Source: Hymenobacter sp. YIM 151500-1
Lineage (GTDB): Bacteria > Bacteroidota > Bacteroidia > Cytophagales > Hymenobacteraceae
NCBI RefSeq assembly: GCF_025979885.1
Contig: NZ_CP110139.1
Coordinates: forward strand, 3,363,501 to 3,427,500
DNA length: 64,000 bases
Direction: 5' to 3'
Position numbers and translations under genes: made by a program. Below are positions 6,992-55,060 of the stretch, in pieces; within the stretch, counting starts at the first letter, position 1; the number at the start of each line of letters is the position of its first letter. The notes under the pieces were generated by a model. The model did not search any database and was not told the origin of the DNA. It saw only the letters and a list, made by a program, of their open reading frames with translations.

Positions 6992-7474
6992 ATGGCTGAA
7001 GAACTCCATCTCGATACCACCGTTTCCAAAGCCGAGCAATACCGCCAGCTTCTGCCCCAGATTGAAGCCCTGACTACCGGTGAACCGGACCTCGTAGCCA
7101 ACTTGGCCAACACCGTGGCGGCCCTGCGGCAGGCGTTTGGTTTTTTTTGGGTGGGCTTCTATCTCGTGAAAGACGACGAGTTGGTGCTGGGGCCGTTTCA
7201 AGGCCCTATTGCCTGCACCCGCATCCGGCGCGGCCGGGGCGTGTGCGGCACCAGTTGGGCGCAGGCCGCCACCATCCTGGTGCCCGACGTGGAGCAGTTT
7301 CCCGGCCATATTGCCTGTAGCTCCGAGAGCAAGTCGGAAATTGTGGTGCCAGTGCTCAAAAACGGCCAGGTGGTAGCCGTGCTTGATGTGGACAGCGACC
7401 AGCTCAACGACTTCGACCACGACGACCAGCAAGCCCTGGAGCAGCTTATGCCGCTGGTGGCCCGGTGGTTCTGA
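6992..7474 (+). CDS. msrC: GAF-domain free methionine-(R)-sulfoxide reductase (160 aa)
   Basis: Reduces free L-methionine-(R)-sulfoxide to methionine in the cytoplasm, using cysteine chemistry with thioredoxin-type electron donors. The protein is one GAF domain. The three family cysteines are present: Cys75 (GPIACTRI), Cys85 (GRGVCGTSW) and Cys109 (GHIACSSES). The FWVGFYL strand and the VLDVDSDQLNDFD segment also match. The ATG at 6992 gives the usual start; an in-frame ATG at 6938 would add residues coded by the repeat region. The last sense codon and stop (TTC TGA) fall inside the left 77-bp inverted repeat of the GxxExxY module. Confidence 0.92.
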   Translation: MAEELHLDTTVSKAEQYRQLLPQIEALTTGEPDLVANLANTVAALRQAFGFFWVGFYLVKDDELVLGPFQGPIACTRIRRGRGVCGTSWAQAATILVPDVEQFPGHIACSSESKSEIVVPVLKNGQVVAVLDVDSDQLNDFDHDDQQALEQLMPLVARWF

Positions 7475-7576
7475 ATCGCGGATTACGCGGATTTTAGGAT
7501 TGCGCGGATTTTGGTGACGAGTGGCGGCCCCGGATGGAGCCGCTCTGCCGAACTGCTACTTAGGATCAACTTCTGG

Positions 7577-7990
7577 TTATTGCTGTGGCGAGTGGTTCGT
7601 TTTGCGGCTTTGCTGGCTTTTAACAAACCGTTTTATGCGTAGGCTTGGCTCACCAAAATTGAGCAGCAAGCCTACCTCTAATTCATAAGCATTGAGATAA
7701 TTGATGACCTGTGCGTAATGGCTGTCGTTGATTTCAGTAAGAGCTTTCAGTTCAACCAGTACGCTTTCTTCCACCAGAAAATCAACTCGTCTGGCTCCTA
7801 CTTCGTGGCCATCATAGAACAGAGGCATCTCTACTTCACGTGCAAAAAGCAATTGTGCCTTTTCCATTTCTATGGCCAAACAGCGCTGATAGATTACTTC
7901 TTGGAAGCCACTTCCCATCTTACCATGCACCCGTAAGGCACAACCAATTATCTTTTCAGTAATCGGAGTGAATCGACTATCTAAGGGCAT
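7577..7990 (-). CDS. GxxExxY protein, PD-(D/E)XK nuclease-like (137 aa)
   Basis: Member of the GxxExxY family (Pfam PDDEXK_3 type). The naming motif reads GFQEVIY at 28-34. The nuclease-like signature is Asp70 in RVDFLV and ELK at 80-82 (spaced D...ExK), and the family tail NFGEPSLRIKRF is at 111-122. No family member has a settled function to my knowledge. The start at 7990 begins the conserved MPLDSRFTPITEKI region; an in-frame ATG at 8068 would begin inside the inverted repeat. Base composition and codon use are clearly more AT-rich than psd and msrC on either side, which suggests transfer. It sits alone in its module. Confidence 0.88.
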   Translation of the reverse strand: MPLDSRFTPITEKIIGCALRVHGKMGSGFQEVIYQRCLAIEMEKAQLLFAREVEMPLFYDGHEVGARRVDFLVEESVLVELKALTEINDSHYAQVINYLNAYELEVGLLLNFGEPSLRIKRFVKSQQSRKTNHSPQQ

Positions 7991-8050
7991 ACTTTGCGCT
8001 ATCTGGATTAGATGTATGACCACGACAAGTTCAAGCCAATTCGTATAGAA

Positions 8051-8078
8051 AACAAAAAGCGGCCCCATCCGGGGCCGC
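8051..8078 (-). terminator. Hairpin plus U-tract inside the inner end of the right arm
   Basis: Arms GCGGCCCC (8059-8066) and GGGGCCGC (8071-8078) form an 8-bp stem with a 4-nt loop. On the minus strand it is followed by TTTTTGTTTT, a good intrinsic terminator. It would stop psd transcripts before they enter the GxxExxY gene. The matching hairpin in the left arm (7524-7543) has one mismatch and no U-tract. Confidence 0.7.
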
Positions 8079-8127
8079 CACTCGTCACCAAAATCCGCGC
8101 AATCCTAAAATCCGCGTAATCCGCGAT

Positions 8128-8808
8128 TCAGAACAAGCCAGGGCTTTCGGTTTTGAGCTGGGCGATGATGGTTTGGCCGCCCTTTACTTTTTCGCCAATC
8201 TGCACTTTTACTTCGGTATCGACGGGCACGAAGATGTCGACGCGGGAGCCGAACTTGATGAAGCCGAACTCCTCGCCCTGGCTTACTTCGTCGCCCTCGT
8301 TCACGTACCACACGATGCGGCGGGCCATGGCCCCGGCAATCTGCCGGAACAGCACAAACGGCCCGGCTTCCGACTCCACGACTACCGTGGTCCGCTCGTT
8401 TTTGGTGCTGCTCTTGGGGTGCCAGGCCACCAAGTAGTTGCCGGGGTGGTACTTGAAGTAACGCACGATACCCGAAATCGGGTTGCGGGTGATGTGCACG
8501 TTAATCGGCGACATGAAGATGCTGATTTGCTTGCGCACGTCGTCGAAGTACTCCGGCTCGTGCACGTCCTCTATCACCACCACTTTGCCGTCGGCCGGGG
8601 CAATAACCAGGTCTTCGTGCGTGAATAGCCGCCGGGCCGGGCTGCGGAAAAACTGCAGCAGCGCCAAAAACACGACGACCGAAATTCCGGCGAAGACCTT
8701 GTTAAATCCCTCGTTGGCGGCGTTGTAGCGAAATAGCAGCAGATTGACGGCCAGCAGGGCCAGCAGGGTAAAGAACAGGATGCGTCGTCCTTCCTTATGA
8801 ATCTTCAT
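8128..8808 (-). CDS. psd: Phosphatidylserine decarboxylase, short type (226 aa)
   Basis: Converts phosphatidylserine to phosphatidylethanolamine at the inner membrane. It is the short, archaeal-type Psd: two N-terminal hydrophobic segments (about 10-26 and 38-54), then the decarboxylase domain. The self-cleavage site is Gly187-Ser188 in FIKFGSRVD, where the serine becomes the pyruvoyl cofactor. Length is normal for this subtype. The terminal Phe codon and stop are supplied by the GxxExxY-module arm, and the start codon is directly followed upstream by another repeat relic, so psd is hemmed in by repeats on both sides. Confidence 0.93.
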   Translation of the reverse strand: MKIHKEGRRILFFTLLALLAVNLLLFRYNAANEGFNKVFAGISVVVFLALLQFFRSPARRLFTHEDLVIAPADGKVVVIEDVHEPEYFDDVRKQISIFMSPINVHITRNPISGIVRYFKYHPGNYLVAWHPKSSTKNERTTVVVESEAGPFVLFRQIAGAMARRIVWYVNEGDEVSQGEEFGFIKFGSRVDIFVPVDTEVKVQIGEKVKGGQTIIAQLKTESPGLF

Positions 8809-12871: not shown

Positions 12872-13041
12872 TTGTTAGGGGCTTAGGGTCTTGGGGACTT
12901 AGAGTCTAAGGGGACGTGCTGCCCCGGTGTAGGCTGTAGCGCGAACTTTATCCTTCAGCTACCTGCTGCGCAGCGAGCTACAAGAGTACTCCAGAACAAA
13001 TCTAAGACCCTAAGCCCCCAAGACCCTACGTCCCTAACTCG
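12872..13041. repeat. Inverted GGGNCTTAG arrays, CPBP-dusB gap
   Basis: Left arm 12872-12912 consists of units like GGGGCTTAG, GGTCTTGG and GGACTTAG; right arm 12999-13037 is its approximate reverse complement. The spacer is about 86 bp. The left arm starts a few bases upstream of the CPBP start codon, and the right arm ends directly before the dusB -7 box. The same unit family recurs at 36299-36455. Confidence 0.7.
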
Positions 13042-30047: not shown

Positions 30048-31157
30048 ATGAAAAACTTACTGCTGGCACTTACTATCCTCCTCGGCACGGCTTCCAGCTG
30101 TGCCCTCAAGCCCACCAACAAGCACGACGTATTCACGGAGCGGGCCCAGCTGCCCCAGGAAGAAGCCGTGCACCCGCGCAACTCCCTGGAGTGGTGGTAC
30201 TTCACCGGCCACCTGCGCGACAAAGCCACCGGTGAAATGTTCGGGGTGGAGTACGTGTTTTTCCACTTCAACATCACGGGCAAGAAGGACTGGCAGATGG
30301 TCAACTTTGCCCTCACTGACCCGCAGCGCCAGCAGTTCCGCTATGACTATAGGGTGGAGCGCCTGCCCCGGCTGCTGGCCTCGGCCCTGCCGCTCAACCT
30401 CAGCACTCAGAAGAAAGACCAGCGCTGGACCCTCACCGGCCAGGAAGGCACCTACCACCTGCAAGGCCGCATGGCCCAGCACCGCGGCCACGCCATCAAC
30501 CTGCGCACCCAGCCCCTGAAGCCCGTGCTCCTGCACAGCGGCACCGGCTACGAAAACTACGGCGACGTGGCCCGCGCCGGCTACTACAGCTACCCCCGCC
30601 TGACCACCACCGGCACCCTCGAAATCGACGGCAAGGTGCGCGAGGTGGAAGGCCAGCTCTGGTACGACCGGCAGTGGAACTGCAACTCCGTCACCAACAA
30701 AGGCATCGGCTGGGACTGGTTTTCTCTGCAACTTGATGAGCCGGCCGTGACGGCGGGCGGCGCGGCCCCCACGGCCCCGGTCCAGCACGAAATCATGGCC
30801 TACCTGCTGTTCGACCGAAACTCCAGCCGCACCGTGAGCGGGGGCACCTACAGCGGCCCCGGCCAGGCCGTGGACCTCAAAGCCCAGGACTTTCAGCTCG
30901 ATGTGCTCAGCTACTGGACCAGCCCTCACTCCCGCCTGCGCTACCCCAGCAAGTGGCGCCTGCGCATTCCCAGCCAGGGCTACGACCTCACCATCACGCC
31001 CCTCGTGCCCGACCAGGAACTGACCCTTAAGCTATTTGCCGGCATCAAAATGCACTACTGGGAAGGCATGTGCCGCGTCGAAGGCACCCACCACGGCCAG
31101 CCCGTGCAGGGCAACAGCTACGTGGAGCTGACGAATCGGGGGAAATCGGAGAAGTGA
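30048..31157 (+). CDS. CrtC/AttH-like lipocalin-domain lipoprotein (369 aa)
   Basis: Lipoprotein: the signal ends GTASSC (Cys18). The rest shows the two-lipocalin-domain fold of the AttH/carotenoid 1,2-hydratase (CrtC) group: the opening HPRNSLEWWYFTGHLRD, the VEYVFFHFN strand, the central EGQLWYDRQW and WDWFSLQL block. The CrtC-like family contains hydratases and many of unknown activity; no carotenoid genes are nearby, so I do not assign the hydratase function. The stop codon TGA is the TGA of the first GAAGTGAGA unit of the array that follows. Confidence 0.85.
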   Translation: MKNLLLALTILLGTASSCALKPTNKHDVFTERAQLPQEEAVHPRNSLEWWYFTGHLRDKATGEMFGVEYVFFHFNITGKKDWQMVNFALTDPQRQQFRYDYRVERLPRLLASALPLNLSTQKKDQRWTLTGQEGTYHLQGRMAQHRGHAINLRTQPLKPVLLHSGTGYENYGDVARAGYYSYPRLTTTGTLEIDGKVREVEGQLWYDRQWNCNSVTNKGIGWDWFSLQLDEPAVTAGGAAPTAPVQHEIMAYLLFDRNSSRTVSGGTYSGPGQAVDLKAQDFQLDVLSYWTSPHSRLRYPSKWRLRIPSQGYDLTITPLVPDQELTLKLFAGIKMHYWEGMCRVEGTHHGQPVQGNSYVELTNRGKSEK

Positions 31158-31262
31158 GATGGTGAGACATGAGACTATGAGACATGAGAGGTGAGACTTT
31201 CGTGCTGACGGCCGCGCCGCTAGAACATCGTCTCACCTCTCACTTCTCAAAGTCTCAGGTCT
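31149..31262. repeat. Inverted GAAGTGAGA arrays between two convergent genes
   Basis: Left arm 31149-31200 (units GAAGTGAGAT, GGTGAGACAT, GAGACTATGA, GAGGTGAGAC), short spacer, right arm 31226-31262 (TCGTCTCACCTCTCACTTCT). The left arm contains the stop of the lipocalin gene; the right arm ends five bases from the stop of the kinase gene. The spacer end AGAACATCGTCTCAC also occurs at 55025-55039. Confidence 0.75.
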
Positions 31263-31267
31263 AATCA

Positions 31268-32452
31268 CTACTCCTCCCTCAATATTACCCGGAACGTGGT
31301 GCCGCGGCTTACTTCGCTCCACTTCACGAAGAGGCGGCCCTGGTGGTAGTTTTCGATGATGCGCTTGGCCAGGGCCAGGCCCAGGCCCCAGCCTCGCTTT
31401 TTGGTGGTGTAGCCCGGCAAAAACACGCTTTCTAGCTTACTCTTCGGAATACCCTTGCCGGTGTCGGTGATGTCGATGGCAATCTGGGTTTTGTTGCGCA
31501 CGGGGCGGCGCAGGTGAATGGTGATGGAGCCGCGGCCGTCCATGGCGTCCACGGCGTTTTTGCAGATGTTTTCGATAACCCAGTCAAACAGCGGCACATT
31601 CACCAGGGCGGGCGTGTCCAGGGGCAGGTCGGTTTTGATGGTGAACGTCACCTTCCTCGATACCCGGCTTTGCAGGTAGCTGATGGCGTTCTGCGTGACG
31701 CGCAGGATGTTTTCGGGCTTGAGCACCGGCACCGAGCCGATGTTGCTGAACCGCTCGGTAATAATCTGTAGGCGCCGGATGTCCTTGCTCAGCTCCTCCA
31801 CGATGGGCTCGTCCCGAAACCGCTCACTCTCGCTCAGGTAGCTCTGCCAGGCCATCAGGCTGCTCAGGGGCGTGCCCAGCTGGTGGGCCGTTTCCTTGGC
31901 CAGGCCTACCCACACCCGGTTCTGCTCGGCCCGCCGCGAGTAGCTGAACGCGAAGTAGGCAATAACCGCCAGGCACCCGATAATTGCCAGCTGCACCAGC
32001 GGGTAGTAGCGCAACTGCGTCAGTAAGGCCGACTCCTTATAATACAGGTAAGAGCGCAGGCCGGCCCCCAGCTCAATCACAATGGGCGGGTGCTGCTCCT
32101 TCATCACCTCCACCTGCTCCCGCAGATACTTTTCCTGCTGCTGGGGCGTGAGGCCCTGGGGCATGTTCAGGTTCTGAGCGTCCACGGGGTAGCCTTCGTC
32201 GTTCACCCAGATAACCGGAATGGTCTTGTTGGCCTCCACAATTTCGGTCATCAGAAACGACACGTTCGACTCTTCCTCCGACGTAACCAGGTAGCGCTGG
32301 GTGCGGGCGTAGAGGTCAATCTGCTTCTGCTCCCGCTCGGCCAGGCGCCGCACCAGGATGTTGGTGTAAATAACGGTGGCGGCGGCCACCAGCAAGGCCA
32401 CGCCCACGATAATGAGCTTGATACGGGACTTTTGGTCGTAAATCGGAATCAC
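31268..32452 (-). CDS. Sensor histidine kinase (394 aa)
   Basis: Two membrane helices (11-34 and 151-172) flank a periplasmic sensor region (35-150) without a recognised domain. The phospho-acceptor is His190 in AKETAHQLGTPLSSL, which is the HxLxTPL pattern of HisKA kinases; then N-box ENICKNAVDAMDG, G1 DTGKGIPKS and G2 GWGLGLALAKR. The start codon is GTG (MIPIYDQKSRIK). No response regulator gene is adjacent, so it is an orphan here. It is divergent from hemA with about 290 bp between, a layout I have seen in related Bacteroidota. Confidence 0.9.
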   Translation of the reverse strand: MIPIYDQKSRIKLIIVGVALLVAAATVIYTNILVRRLAEREQKQIDLYARTQRYLVTSEEESNVSFLMTEIVEANKTIPVIWVNDEGYPVDAQNLNMPQGLTPQQQEKYLREQVEVMKEQHPPIVIELGAGLRSYLYYKESALLTQLRYYPLVQLAIIGCLAVIAYFAFSYSRRAEQNRVWVGLAKETAHQLGTPLSSLMAWQSYLSESERFRDEPIVEELSKDIRRLQIITERFSNIGSVPVLKPENILRVTQNAISYLQSRVSRKVTFTIKTDLPLDTPALVNVPLFDWVIENICKNAVDAMDGRGSITIHLRRPVRNKTQIAIDITDTGKGIPKSKLESVFLPGYTTKKRGWGLGLALAKRIIENYHQGRLFVKWSEVSRGTTFRVILREE

Positions 32453-34015: not shown

Positions 34016-34405
34016 GCTTTAGCCTCACCCCCCGGCCCCCTCTCCTGCGGAGAGGGGGAGCCAGTTCCGGGTCGTTCTACGCTGCCCTGTCGGCTACCGC
34101 CTCCAGAACGGCTACCGGATTGTAGTGGCACGGTAGCCGCGTAGGGGCCTACAGGTTTGTAGATAGATGGGGAAAGAACAGGCTAGCACCGCGTAGCGGT
34201 GCCAGAGACGCCCGAACGTTTCTTGCACCGCTACGCGGCGCTACATTCTTCTACGTGTGGTTTCTACACTCCTTTAGCCGCTACGCGGCCACTGTGCTAC
34301 TACAAGCAGGTAGCCGTCCTGGAGGCGCTAGCCGACAGGGCGGCGTAGCACGACCTGGCGTCAGGCTCCCCCTCTCCGCGGGAGAGGGGGCCGGGGGGTG
34401 AGGCC
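34016..34405. repeat. Composite intergenic repeat, palindromic copies 2 and 3
   Basis: About 230-bp units in opposite orientation, 34016-34246 and 34186-34405, share a central palindrome (34186-34246, AGCACCGCGTAGCGGTGCC and CACCGCTACGCGG). Each outer end is a CCCCCTCTCC-type hairpin preceded or followed by a GAGGC/GCCTC sequence. The whole forms a large foldback between hemA and the ArsR-type gene. The same composite is at 29655-30017. Confidence 0.65.
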
Positions 34406-36298: not shown

Positions 36299-36455
36299 AG
36301 GGTCTTAGGGACTTAGGGGCTTGGGGTCTTAGTAACTTAGCTTTGTGCCGAATTGCTTTTTCCCTTTTCATCAGTCTGATTTTGCGAAGAATTAGAACGA
36401 GCACCAAATCCATAGGAAAATCTAAGCCCCTAAGACCCCAAGCCCCTAAGACCCT
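36299..36455. repeat. Inverted GGGNCTTAG arrays, dehydrogenase-mscS gap
   Basis: Left arm 36299-36341 (AGGGTCTTAGGGACTTAGGG and so on) starts at the base after the TAA stop; right arm 36419-36455 is its approximate inverse and ends five bases before the mscS ATG. The spacer is AT-rich (about 77 bp) and may hold the mscS promoter. Same unit family as 12872-13041. Confidence 0.75.
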
Positions 36456-36460
36456 ACCCA

Positions 36461-49410: not shown

Positions 49411-49511
49411 CTTGAATGAGTGATTGAGTGAATGAACGAATGAGTGAATGAATGACCACTACTTCCGGGTTGGAACGGCCACTCATTCACTCATTCGCTC
49501 ATTCACTCATT
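49411..49511. repeat. Inverted GAATGAGT arrays between idh and ytxH
   Basis: Left arm 49411-49456 is made of 4-nt GAAT/GAGT steps (GAATGAGTGATTGAGTGAAT and on); right arm 49480-49511 is the inverse (CACTCATTCACTCATTCGCT). The spacer is only 23 bp. The pair fills the gap from the idh start to within 7 bp of the ytxH stop. Confidence 0.75.
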
Positions 49512-49833: not shown

Positions 49834-49984
49834 TTGGAAGTAAGTAGTGAGTATTAGGTATTAGGAAACCCAAAACATCTGCAAGTACGGAGAAATTACG
49901 GTGGAGGTAACACTCAGTGCTTTCAGGCAAGGCGCCGCCTTCACCCACCAGCATCTTACTACCAATTACCTGCTACCACCTACT
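49834..49984. repeat. Inverted GGTAGTA-like arrays between ytxH and nusB
   Basis: Left arm 49834-49867 (GGAAGTAAGTAGTGAGTATT, AGGTATTAGG); right arm 49953-49984 (TCTTACTACCAATTACCTGC, TACCACCTACTGG), approximately inverted. The nusB stop codon TAG is in the right arm. Confidence 0.6.
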
Positions 49985-51164
49985 GGTTGTCCAGCAGCCC
50001 GCGGCCCGACTTGCGGATGGCGCCGCTGGCCGTCAGGTCCTGGGCCAATTTATCCAGAATCCCGTTCACAAACTGCTTGCTCTTGGGCGTGGAGTACATC
50101 TTGCTGATTTCGATGTACTCGTTGATGGTCACTTTCACCGGAATGGCCCGGAACAAGTGCATCTCGCACAACGCCATCTTCAGCAAAATCTTGTCGGTAA
50201 GCGCCACGCGCTCCACGTCCCAGTTCTGCACCGACTCGGCAATCAGCTTCTCGTACTTCTCGTCGTCCTGCAAGGTCTGGCGGTACAGGCTTTCGGCAAA
50301 CTCCTTGTCTTCCTGCCAGTTTGCCGACAGCGACATGAGCACCAGCTTCTCGTCGGCGGCCTCGTCGAGCATCTTGATGGTTTTCACCACCAGGTTTTTC
50401 ACAATGGGCCGGTTTTCCTCCCAGTTCAGGTCGTCTTCCTCGATGTAGGCCGGCAGGCTGGTGCCCTTGAACACGTACGTCTTGTAGAGGTGCTTCAGGA
50501 TTTCCTGGTCCTCCGGGTAGTTGCCGGCCGGGGCCGCCAGGTAGCTTAGCAGCTCCGGGTCCTGCTTTATTTCGGTGCGCCACGCGGTGCGTAGAGCTTC
50601 CATCTCGGCCTCGCCGTGCCACTTCAGCGAGCGGCGAATGGTGAGGTCCTGGAGCTGGAGGTTGCCCATGAGCTTCTCAATCACGGGGTTCTGCTCCAGG
50701 CGGGCGGTGTCCAGCAGGGGCTCCTTGGCGGCCGTGAGGCGGCGGGCAGCCCGTTCCTTTTCGTCCTCAATCACCTGAAGCAGCGCCTCCGGAATGTTGA
50801 GCAGGTGAATGTACTGGTCGTGGATGCTCTCGGCGGCGTGCACCATCTGCCCGCCGTAGTAGGTGGCGTCTTTGGCCACGGCTTTCTGGTAAAACTTGAT
50901 GGCGTCCTGCACGGCGTCGTTTACGTCGGCGTCGTCGGTTTTTTCTGGCTCCTGGCCGGTTTTGTGCCATTCTTTAAAGATTACCTCGGCCAGCTTGCGC
51001 TGCCCTTGCAGCTGCCGCCGGTCCTGGGGCTCGGGCGAGTTCAAATCGGGCGCGAAGGCATCCGCAATCCGGTCAACGGCCAACAGATAATCCGACCCCA
51101 CCGCCTGATGGTAGGCGTACAGGGCCTGCATGACCTTAATGCGAAGCGTGCGACGGTTGAGCAT
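49980..51164 (-). CDS. nusB: Transcription antitermination factor NusB, long Bacteroidota form (394 aa)
   Basis: RNA-binding factor of the rRNA antitermination complex. The NusB fold is in the C-terminal half (about 255-370): DVERVALTDKILLKMALCE and FRAIPVKVTINEYIEISK with the final VNGILDKLAQ helix. The N-terminus MLNRRTLRIKVMQALYAYHQ is also conserved; a long middle segment is typical of Bacteroidota NusB compared with about 140 aa in E. coli. The stop codon lies in a GGTAGTA array, the start next to a GAAGTGAG array. Confidence 0.92.
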   Translation of the reverse strand: MLNRRTLRIKVMQALYAYHQAVGSDYLLAVDRIADAFAPDLNSPEPQDRRQLQGQRKLAEVIFKEWHKTGQEPEKTDDADVNDAVQDAIKFYQKAVAKDATYYGGQMVHAAESIHDQYIHLLNIPEALLQVIEDEKERAARRLTAAKEPLLDTARLEQNPVIEKLMGNLQLQDLTIRRSLKWHGEAEMEALRTAWRTEIKQDPELLSYLAAPAGNYPEDQEILKHLYKTYVFKGTSLPAYIEEDDLNWEENRPIVKNLVVKTIKMLDEAADEKLVLMSLSANWQEDKEFAESLYRQTLQDDEKYEKLIAESVQNWDVERVALTDKILLKMALCEMHLFRAIPVKVTINEYIEISKMYSTPKSKQFVNGILDKLAQDLTASGAIRKSGRGLLDNQ

Positions 51165-51235
51165 GGAATAGAAGTGAGTACAGAGAAGTGAGAAGTGAGA
51201 CTTCTTCCGACCCTTGGTGATGTTGGTAAGCGTAA

Positions 51236-51592
51236 TTAGTCGTTCAGGGATTTTCGTAACCCATAAATCATGCGTTGCAATTCCCCTAAGCGGCTACAGA
51301 TTTCTTCGGTAGCCGCGGCACTGATGTAGCCAAATGATTCGGCCAGCAGAAATTGTGTTTCCAATTCGTATGATGAGCCGTTGGAAACAGACAAGAAATG
51401 CTGAAACTCCTTTGCTGAATCTCGCCCGGCTCCTTCTGCCACATTCGATGGTATCGAAACCGCAGCGCGGCGCATCTGCGAAATCAGTCCAAATCGTTCA
51501 TCATCCGGAAAGCCCGCGCAGCTCGTGTAAGTCAGCCGCGCTATTTCCATAGCTTTCTGCCAGACTTTAAGTTCTCTGAACCGGTGTTTCAT
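51236..51592 (-). CDS. Four-helix bundle protein, S23/IVP family (118 aa)
   Basis: Belongs to the 23S rRNA intervening-sequence protein (S23/IVP) family, also related to the bAvd accessory protein of diversity-generating retroelements. The family pattern is intact: FRELKVWQKAMEIA, FGLISQMRRAAVSIPSN, VAEGAGRDSAKEFQHFL and YELETQFLLAE. The family's function outside retroelements is not known. No reverse transcriptase or variable repeat is in the window. Base composition is more AT-rich than the neighbours, and the gene is flanked by repeat arrays, suggesting insertion. Confidence 0.9.
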   Translation of the reverse strand: MKHRFRELKVWQKAMEIARLTYTSCAGFPDDERFGLISQMRRAAVSIPSNVAEGAGRDSAKEFQHFLSVSNGSSYELETQFLLAESFGYISAAATEEICSRLGELQRMIYGLRKSLND

Positions 51593-51638
51593 TTGAGTAG
51601 AAGTGAGAGGCTAGATATGAGAAGTGAGATACATAGTT

Positions 51639-51670
51639 TAAAACTACTGGTCTGGATGCTAGCAGCGCAA
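51639..51670 (-). promoter_or_regulatory. Candidate promoter of the four-helix-bundle gene
   Basis: On the minus strand TTG (51668-51670), a 21-nt spacer, then TAGTTTTA (51639-51646; one mismatch to TAnnTTTG). It lies between the two arrays upstream of the gene. Confidence 0.5.
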
Positions 51671-51708
51671 AAAAAGTCTCACTTCTCACTTCTAACCTCT
51701 CACTTCTA

Positions 51709-52797
51709 TCAATAGGTTGATTTAACCTTGCCGATGGCAGCGATGCGCTCCTCGGCCTGGCGGATGGCGGCGGCCTGCGGGTGGGTACCTTCCTGCTCGG
51801 CCTTGAGCAGCACCTGGGTGGTGAAGTCGTAGATTTTCTCGGTCTGCGTGAGGGCCGACTGGCGGCTGCCCCCGATTACCTCCGAGTACACGTTGATGAG
51901 GCCGCCGGCGTTGATAAGGAAGTCGGGGGCGTATACGATGCCGCGGTCCACGAGGGCGGGGCCGTGCACGTTTTCCTCGGCCAGCTGGTTGTTGGCGCAG
52001 CCCGCAATTACCTGGCACTTCAGGCGCGAGATGGTGTCGTCGTTGATGGTGGCTCCCAGGGCGCAGGGCGAGTAGATGTCCACATCCTGGTCGTAGATGT
52101 CGTCGAGGTCCACGGCCGTGGCGCCGAAGCGGGCGGCGGCCTGCTGGGCGCGTTCCGGGTAGTAGTCGGTCAGCACCAGCCGGGCGCCTTCTTTCTGCAG
52201 GTATTCCAGCAGATAGGTGCCCACGTGGCCCACGCCCTGCATGGCCACGCGCTTGCCCTGCAAGGAGTCGGAGCCGAAGGCCCGCTTGGCGGCAGCCTTC
52301 ATGCCCATGTAGGTGCCGTAGGCCGTAACCGGCGACGGGTCGCCGGAGCCGCCCATGCTCTCGGGCAGGCCCGATACGTGCTTGGTTTCCATGCGGATGT
52401 ATTCCATGTCCTTGGTGGTCATGTTCACATCCTCAGCCGTGATGTACTTGCCGTTGAGGTTCTGCACGAAGCGCCCGAACTTACGCAGCAGGGCTTCGGT
52501 CTTGAGGCTTTTGTCGCCGATGATGACGGCCTTGCCCCCGCCCAGGTTCAGCCCCGAAATGGCCGCCTTGTAGGTCATGCCGCGCGAGAGGCGGAGCACG
52601 TCGTGCAGGGCTTCGGCGTCGGAGGCGTAGTGCCACAGGCGGGTGCCGCCCAGGGCCGGCCCCAGCACCGTGTTGTGAATGCCGATGATGGCGCGCAGGC
52701 CGGTTTCGTGGTCGTGGCAGAACACTACCTGCTCGTGCTGATACTCGGCAATCTGCCCAAAGACCGACGTGTCGGCCAACGCTTTCGTTTCAACCAT
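51709..52797 (-). CDS. Leucine dehydrogenase-like Glu/Leu/Phe/Val dehydrogenase (362 aa)
   Basis: NAD-dependent deamination of branched-chain amino acids. The short 362-aa length, HNTVLGPALGGTRLW, the catalytic-lysine region MTYKAAISGLNLGGGKAVI and the nucleotide motif GVGHVGTYLLEYL point to the leucine dehydrogenase branch. The ATG at 52797 (MVETKALADTSVFGQ) is preferred over 52863. A TACTTTTG box on the minus strand at 52970-52977 may be the promoter, giving a roughly 160-nt leader. Its stop directly precedes a TAGAAGTGAGAG array. Confidence 0.87.
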   Translation of the reverse strand: MVETKALADTSVFGQIAEYQHEQVVFCHDHETGLRAIIGIHNTVLGPALGGTRLWHYASDAEALHDVLRLSRGMTYKAAISGLNLGGGKAVIIGDKSLKTEALLRKFGRFVQNLNGKYITAEDVNMTTKDMEYIRMETKHVSGLPESMGGSGDPSPVTAYGTYMGMKAAAKRAFGSDSLQGKRVAMQGVGHVGTYLLEYLQKEGARLVLTDYYPERAQQAAARFGATAVDLDDIYDQDVDIYSPCALGATINDDTISRLKCQVIAGCANNQLAEENVHGPALVDRGIVYAPDFLINAGGLINVYSEVIGGSRQSALTQTEKIYDFTTQVLLKAEQEGTHPQAAAIRQAEERIAAIGKVKSTY

Positions 52798-53020: not shown

Positions 53021-53154
53021 GGGAGTTTAGAGGTTTGGAAGTTAGAAAGTTAGAAAGTGGTTTTGCCTGGTTGAGGTCGGTTTCCCGACCAGCTGCCGAA
53101 ACCCTTCCGTAGTCTTTTAACTTTCTAACTTCCAAACTCCTAAACTTCCCAACT
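53021..53154. repeat. Inverted GTTAGAAA arrays upstream of the ABC exporter
   Basis: Left arm 53021-53060 (GGGAGTTTAGAGGTTTGGAA, GTTAGAAAGTTAGAAAGTGG); right arm 53115-53154 (inverse: TTTTAACTTTCTAACTTCCA and on). Spacer about 54 bp. A single related arm occurs at the coaE 3' end (45184-45212). Confidence 0.7.
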
Positions 53155-54948: not shown

Positions 54949-55060
54949 GTAGAAGTGGGAGGTTAGAAGTGAGACGATGAGAAGTGAGAGGTGAGACTTT
55001 TGTTCTATCGAGCCTGATGCCTTCAGAACATCGTCTCACTTCTCATCGTCTCACTTCTAC
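54949..55060. repeat. Inverted GAAGTGAGA arrays between two convergent genes
   Basis: Left arm 54949-55000 (TGTAGAAGTGGGAGGTTAG, AAGTGAGACGATGAG, GAGGTGAGAC); spacer with TGTTCT / AGAACA; right arm 55029-55059 (CATCGTCTCACTTCTCATCG). The ABC gene stops two bases before; the stop TAG of the oxidoreductase is inside the right arm. Closest relative: 31149-31262. Confidence 0.78.

Follow-up and report, generated by a model that had tools for sequence, protein, structure and literature searches.

In the window, a 64,000-nt stretch of Hymenobacter sp. YIM 151500-1 (contig NZ_CP110139.1, positions 3,363,501 to 3,427,500), a small gene of the S23/IVP four-helix-bundle family is enclosed by arrays of short repeated units that face each other in inverted orientation. 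The question raised by this locus is whether the gene is merely carried by the repeats, as an earlier note on the same DNA had proposed by calling it cargo, or whether the repeats belong to the gene. At a probability of roughly 0.5, we read S23 as the gene that encodes the resident protein of a family of hairpin repeats, whose arms would be bound by the S23 protein and whose spread or maintenance would be influenced by it in trans. Judging from sequence comparisons, the gene is unlikely to be passive cargo.

To score caging, the 400 nt on each side of a gene were compared for their best inverted match with one another, and a gene was counted as caged at a score of at least 28. The genus sample, drawn from 61 genomes of the window's genus, comprised 75 PF05635 (S23) genes and 30 PF13366 (GxxExxY) genes, with 339 genes of the window's own genome as controls. 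Caging was found for 68 of the 75 S23 genes and 29 of the 30 GxxExxY genes, and for 10 of the 339 controls. Three of these ten came from the window itself, namely its S23 gene, its GxxExxY gene, and an open reading frame (ORF) overlapping the latter; at a score of at least 32, the remaining three controls were the same S23 and GxxExxY genes and one DUF559-like gene. In named genomes from many phyla (80 loci), 59 of 79 scorable S23 genes were caged (p < 0.01 by shuffling). Many seemingly caged controls in these genomes were further S23 paralogues and were removed; among the cleaned controls, 13/624 reached a score of 28 and 4/624 a score of 34. Chance was ruled out as the cause of caging by these low control rates (10/339 and 13/624). 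The enrichment of both families next to inverted arrays across genomes, for which the earlier note had suggested a survey, was therefore strong, and it supports the suggestion of that note that both proteins belong to the elements. In the open-access literature, no paper linking S23 or GxxExxY to flanking arrays was found.

The protein of the window matched PF05635 (23S_rRNA_IVP) in the profile search with an E-value of 9e-36 and 122.7 bits, compared to a curated cut-off of 33.8. This was its sole Pfam match, and TIGR02436 matched as well. The AlphaFold model (pLDDT 96) showed four helices, and Foldseek placed it nearest to 2gsc (TM-score 0.94) and 2rld, followed by bAvd, 4dwl (TM-score 0.80); a weak relation to NF033474, the accessory profile of diversity-generating retroelements (DGRs), was also detected (E 8e-5). 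The solved relatives 2gsc and 2rld contain five chains each, and the relative XCC0516 is reported, as cited in PMC4990558, to be a homopentameric toroid. Both fold and profile place the protein in the S23 family, and a pentameric ring, known from relatives only, may be expected for it by analogy. The family is frequent: of 198 genomes sampled from the phylum, 157 have it, and no function is known for it according to PMC4990558.

At the window locus, three arrays flank the S23 gene (Table 1); the coordinates given in the earlier note were right. The two outer arrays are 85% complementary over 39 nt, while the inner array and the outer upstream array are 91% complementary over 32 nt, with five cores per arm. 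On the gene strand the order is array >, array <, gene, array <, and the layout reads as an ordinary-looking hairpin 5′ of the gene plus one extra inverted array 3′ of it. The plausible promoter of its own that had been ascribed to the gene was not supported: no sigma-70 match was found, and a putative Bacteroidota-like promoter pair, TTTG..TAGTTTTA, is visible on the minus strand of the 47-nt spacer. An Rfam scan of the window returned tRNAs only, and the element lies between protein genes, not inside a 23S ribosomal RNA (rRNA) helix.

The arms of the S23 cages follow a regular design. In the genus, the period was 7 at 58 of 67 loci and 8 at the others, and the modal core count was five for both the left arm (34/67) and the right arm (34/67). 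When another core definition was applied to all S23 loci, five remained the commonest count (105 of 250 arms), followed by six (44) and four (36); core counting is crude, and arms with four or six cores also exist. Independently of arm alignment, the self-similar stretch in the genus had a median of 4.57 units, or about 32 nt (interquartile range 30–35 nt), which corresponds to four spacers and five cores. Examples are TCA ATTA TCA GTTA TCA TTCA TCA ATTA TCA at locus L033, five AATT at L083 and L091, and five AG in the window arm. Agreement between arms was 0.88 in register and 0.75 when shifted by one unit, the former being better at 57 of 62 S23 loci, so the spacers match between arms too. 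The 5′ (left) arm was G-rich in 63 of 68 S23 cages and 27 of 29 GxxExxY cages. The S23 element had a median length of 483 nt, and the distance from array to start codon a median of 24.5 nt (lower quartile 10).

The GxxExxY arms agreed at 0.93 in register and 0.47 when unit-shifted, being long, irregular terminal repeats with a loose 9–10-nt repetition. These cages are real, yet they are built otherwise than the S23 arms. Of the earlier proposal that the two modules share one plan, the similar outline was thus retained, whereas the arm design differs.

Three further observations concern individual loci. At L093, L097, L011, L032, L074, and L095, a full hairpin stands on one or both sides of the gene (> < gene > <) instead of a single arm pair. 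At L225, in a metagenome-assembled genome of Planctomycetota, S23 lies between inverted arrays of more than 230 nt with GGACGGT/GGACAGT-type heptamers, far beyond five units. The S23 reading frames at L027, L073, and L094 are each interrupted by one in-frame stop.

The inverted arms might also act as RNA, as in the intervening sequences (IVSs) of 23S rRNA: they would pair in the transcript with the gene in the loop, RNase III would cut the stem, and insertion between co-transcribed genes would be harmless. The protein family and the layout are shared with the Coxiella IVS, to which the median element length of 483 and the arms of about 32 nt are comparable. On the sense strand, however, G-U pairs were not favoured among the arm mismatches (56 vs. 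51, p = 0.70), which leaves no trace of selection for an RNA stem, and no S23 locus was shown to lie within an rRNA gene. This explanation is the least probable of those weighed here.

Array units vary widely among S23 loci, and this variation follows the protein. For pairs of S23 loci at unrelated sites, protein identity predicted unit similarity (Spearman 0.38), also with one locus per site (Spearman 0.40, n = 33, p < 5e-4), and GxxExxY loci behaved comparably (r = 0.37, n = 14, p = 0.0045). The DNA just beyond the arms had no relation to protein similarity in the genus (r = 0.02 and −0.04). Much of the genus signal came from the split of a subfamily with AATT/CATTT-type units from the rest. 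Across 100 S23 loci from several phyla, where some pairs may share a site, r was 0.26, with a partial r of 0.21 when flank composition was allowed for; for the main subfamily by itself it was 0.32 (p < 0.002 in all three cases). A composition artefact was rejected as the source of co-divergence, since the flanking DNA was uncorrelated in the genus and the partial correlation survived across phyla.

Empty hairpins were recorded by a census combining a 464-kb genome sample with pattern counts. In the sample, gene-free hairpins of the same make as the S23 arrays were found between genes, many with five cores per arm; examples from the window are given in Table 1. At L112:7172-7423, two array hairpins are nested symmetrically, AATGAGTG outside and GTGACAGG inside, as if a younger hairpin had entered the loop of an older one.

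Unit abundance was determined by counting 19-base unit patterns in the 61 genomes. The GGGNCTTN pattern reached 188, 60, 58, 45, and 8 copies in the five carriers of a matching S23, compared to a median of 0 and a maximum of 22 elsewhere (p = 6e-5); the carrier with only 8 copies is the genome whose S23 (L027) has the in-frame stop. GTGAGAN was present in 103 and 51 copies in carriers, with a median of 0 elsewhere (p = 6e-4), and TTAGCTN in 64, 54, 17, 10, and 0 copies in carriers (p = 0.005). Long arrays give overlapping matches that inflate these counts; for this reason, and because of the relatedness of the genomes, the p values should be taken as indicative. Because the unit tracks the protein lineage and its copy number tracks carriage of the matching S23, the gene appears as owner or driver of the repeats, and cargo is probably a misnomer.

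The behaviour of single sites was followed at two positions. At the intergenic site between the leucine/glutamate-dehydrogenase-like gene (LeuDH) and nusB (L127–L155), a period-7/8 array hairpin was present in 22 of 28 genomes without S23 there; the unit types switch between species, and S23 occurs at this site only in G000, the genome of the window, and G016. As the hairpins stand alone there in relatives, each hairpin can do without the S23 gene. G006 (L148) and G055 (L151) are close relatives, and at this site the array of one still has the unit of the other at its outer edge. At a fadB-/fadA-like intergenic site, S23 was found in 8 of 30 genomes, and in G003 and G035 the flanks are about 92% identical up to the array edge, while gene plus arrays differ as a block.

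Such sites could alternatively be host features or hotspots, for example mRNA-end structures, where arrays arise from slippage and arm-to-arm conversion and where S23 and GxxExxY are passive passengers. The hairpins at 22 of 28 S23-less LeuDH-nusB sites and the nesting at L112 would be in line with this. It does not explain why random small genes are almost never found inside such arrays (13/624), why the S23 and GxxExxY families retain distinct arm designs, or why the unit tracks the protein at unrelated sites and its number the matching S23, and we regard it as improbable.

The preferred reading, with S23 as resident gene, can be stated as a mechanism. Each arm would be a binding array for S23 itself, its short cores, as a rule five in number and spaced by 7 or 8 nt, each being taken up by one subunit of the ring. 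Arms occur as inverted pairs, of which one encloses the gene, while many more are empty and intergenic. The protein would act in trans by binding to its own arrays, with host replication or recombination enzymes supplying the chemistry. Hairpins of its own unit would then spread, displace others from preferred intergenic positions, and be kept homogeneous, in the manner proposed for RAYTs and REPINs. Caging, the five-core mode, strand polarity, unit–protein co-divergence, co-occurrence of S23 with its unit population, and block exchange at one site were computed; from these we infer binding, the assignment of one core to one subunit, and any active role in spread. The five-core mode would fit the five-subunit ring of the S23 relatives.

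Several results weigh against this mechanism. We know of no catalytic site in S23. Most S23 copies were found at shared old syntenic sites, one per site; movement is therefore rare at best, and a model in which each copy jumps was rejected on this ground. Neither a target duplication nor a young insertion was found. Array hairpins are present in genomes without detected S23 (G042 and G056), and the non-carriers G008 and G016 hold 89 copies of GTGAGAN and 76 of TTAGCTN, respectively. No S23 matching these units was detected in G008 and G016, and their arrays are possibly relics of an S23 since lost or replaced; one shared site has a divergent S23 whose unit differs. When the AATT/CATTT-type subfamily was left out (main S23 subfamily), co-divergence in the genus was weak (r = 0.14, p = 0.10, n = 16). 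Finally, a regulator with co-evolving operators would yield much of the same pattern.

As such a stationary regulator, the S23 ring would bind five-core arrays in 5′ leaders or in DNA, repress its own gene by way of the array at the start codon, and control genes adjacent to the scattered hairpins. The array often stops 10–25 nt before the start codon, translational control was suggested by MacGregor for TAACTGA heptamers just 5′ of start codons (PMC4679880), and unit–protein co-divergence fits the co-evolution of operator and regulator. Single operators would need neither inverted arm pairs in register (0.88 vs. 0.75; 57/62) nor a downstream arm, which is regularly present, and differing units per species at the orthologous LeuDH-nusB site are odd for a conserved regulon. 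A regulator of this kind seems rather unlikely, with more in its favour than hotspots or RNA stems.

At least four small protein families with no relation to one another (S23, GxxExxY, DUF559, and RAYT) may each reside within inverted repeats of their own. Endonuclease-like genes of DUF559 (PF04480) were caged at 24 of 28 scorable genus loci by large palindromic CCTCACCCCC..GAGAGGGGG arms, and these palindromes also occur gene-free. With the detector used for S23, 20 of 28 RAYT/Y1-transposase genes of the genus were caged by hairpins resembling repetitive extragenic palindromes (REPs) (L332–L353; L229:13187-13763), and the IS200-type 142-aa copies L326–L330 were uncaged; the two groups thereby served as positive and negative controls for the detector.

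Table 1. Positions of the S23 element, its neighbours, and related features (window coordinates unless a locus is given).
Feature	Position	Strand	Remarks
S23/IVP four-helix-bundle gene	51236..51592	-	118 aa; profile match and predicted fold
Outer array 3′ of gene	51166..51206	+	GAAGTGAGA-type forward units; inverted partner of 51671-51709
Inner array directly 5′ of start codon	51595..51629	+	forward units; five cores, 7-nt spacing (AGAAGTG AGAGGCT AGATATG AGAAGTG AGA)
Spacer between inner and outer upstream arrays	51630..51676	.	47 nt; loop of the "empty-type" hairpin
Outer array 5′ of gene	51671..51709	-	inverted units; abuts stop codon of LeuDH-like gene
NusB-like gene	49980..51164	-	neighbour outside element; synteny
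Leucine/glutamate-dehydrogenase-like gene	51709..52791	-	neighbour outside element
Empty array hairpin	12874..13038	.	AGGGTCTT-type (unit of S23 gene L001); period 8, 5 + 5 cores
Empty array hairpin	36306..36456	.	AGGGTCTT-type
Empty array hairpin	49413..49511	.	AATGAGTG-type (unit of S23 gene L006)
Empty array hairpin	31148..31277	.	GAAGTGAGA-type
Empty array hairpin	54951..55059	.	GAAGTGAGA-type
Empty array hairpin	53021..53149	.	GAAGTTAG-type
GxxExxY (PF13366) element	7470..8130		near-perfect 77-nt terminal inverted repeats of CGCGGATTTT units
GxxExxY gene	7628..7963	-	inside the element above
Gene-free CCTCACCCCC..GAGAGGGGG palindrome	47061..47335
Gene-free CCTCACCCCC..GAGAGGGGG palindrome	34022..34404
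DUF559 locus	L119:10246-10672	-
DUF559 locus	L188:15254-15632	-
DUF559 loci	L296-L325

Mirror-image five-unit arrays around S23, together with their scattered copies, suggest an unrecognised type of self-perpetuating repeat system. S23 had been known mainly from insertions in rRNA genes and is here found caged across many bacteria. The arrays provide a concrete candidate ligand for the protein, with the countable prediction of five cores for five subunits, and they connect S23 to unexplained heptamer repeats reported in several phyla. With at least four caged families, the RAYT–REPIN arrangement may be one case of a wider pattern. A more far-reaching and tentative view, which we hold to be possible and somewhat doubtful, is that an S23 ring recognises an address of five words, each subunit reading one, and that such rings propel an entire class of hairpin repeats through bacterial genomes with no transposase involved; the rRNA IVSs would be copies that landed in rRNA, and protein and word would co-diverge into lineage dialects.

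Four known systems can be compared with the S23 elements. The DGR protein Avd (4dwl and the 8ub-series of ribonucleoprotein structures) shares the fold of S23 (Foldseek TM-score 0.80) and a weak profile relation. It differs in having a cognate reverse transcriptase, which S23 does not need, so the S23 elements do not classify as DGRs. An Avd-like partnership was rejected, as reverse transcriptases are too rare in the genus (PF00078 in 13/61 genomes vs. S23 in 50/61); they are missing from most array-rich genomes, such as G016, G027, G030, G035, and G060.

The S23-containing 23S rRNA IVSs of Coxiella and Leptospira (PMC4990558) likewise have the ORF looped out between terminal inverted repeats and are of similar length; in Coxiella the IVS measures 428–444 nt, and the terminal stem that closes the S23-bearing loop is 28 bp long and is cleaved by RNase III (PMC4990558). 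The elements described here differ in lying between protein genes, in having arms of tandem 7–8-nt units, and in having empty copies throughout the genome.

Seven-base TAACTGA direct repeats between genes were reported in Bacteroidetes, cyanobacteria, and Beggiatoaceae by MacGregor in 2015, who proposed an unknown binding protein (PMC4679880). The same type of heptamer occurs in the S23 arms of L093 and L097 (TCAGTTA/TAACTGA), whereas the reported repeats consist of a single unit, and neither an S23 gene nor more than a very few inverted pairs were described for them. They look like the same array class, seen without their protein.

The closest parallel is the REPIN–RAYT system (PMC3116915), in which a single-copy resident gene per repeat type lies within its own inverted repeats, many gene-free intergenic hairpins of the same type exist, and gene and repeat are thought to co-evolve. 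In S23, too, a repeat type of its own is inverted around the gene, and a population of gene-free hairpins is present in the genome. Unlike S23, a four-helix bundle whose arms are five-core tandem arrays, RAYTs belong to the Y1 (HUH) transposases, and their REPs are short palindromes. With PF05635 as its sole Pfam match, S23 has no Y1/HUH transposase and is therefore not a member of REPIN–RAYT, yet it would work in a similar way.
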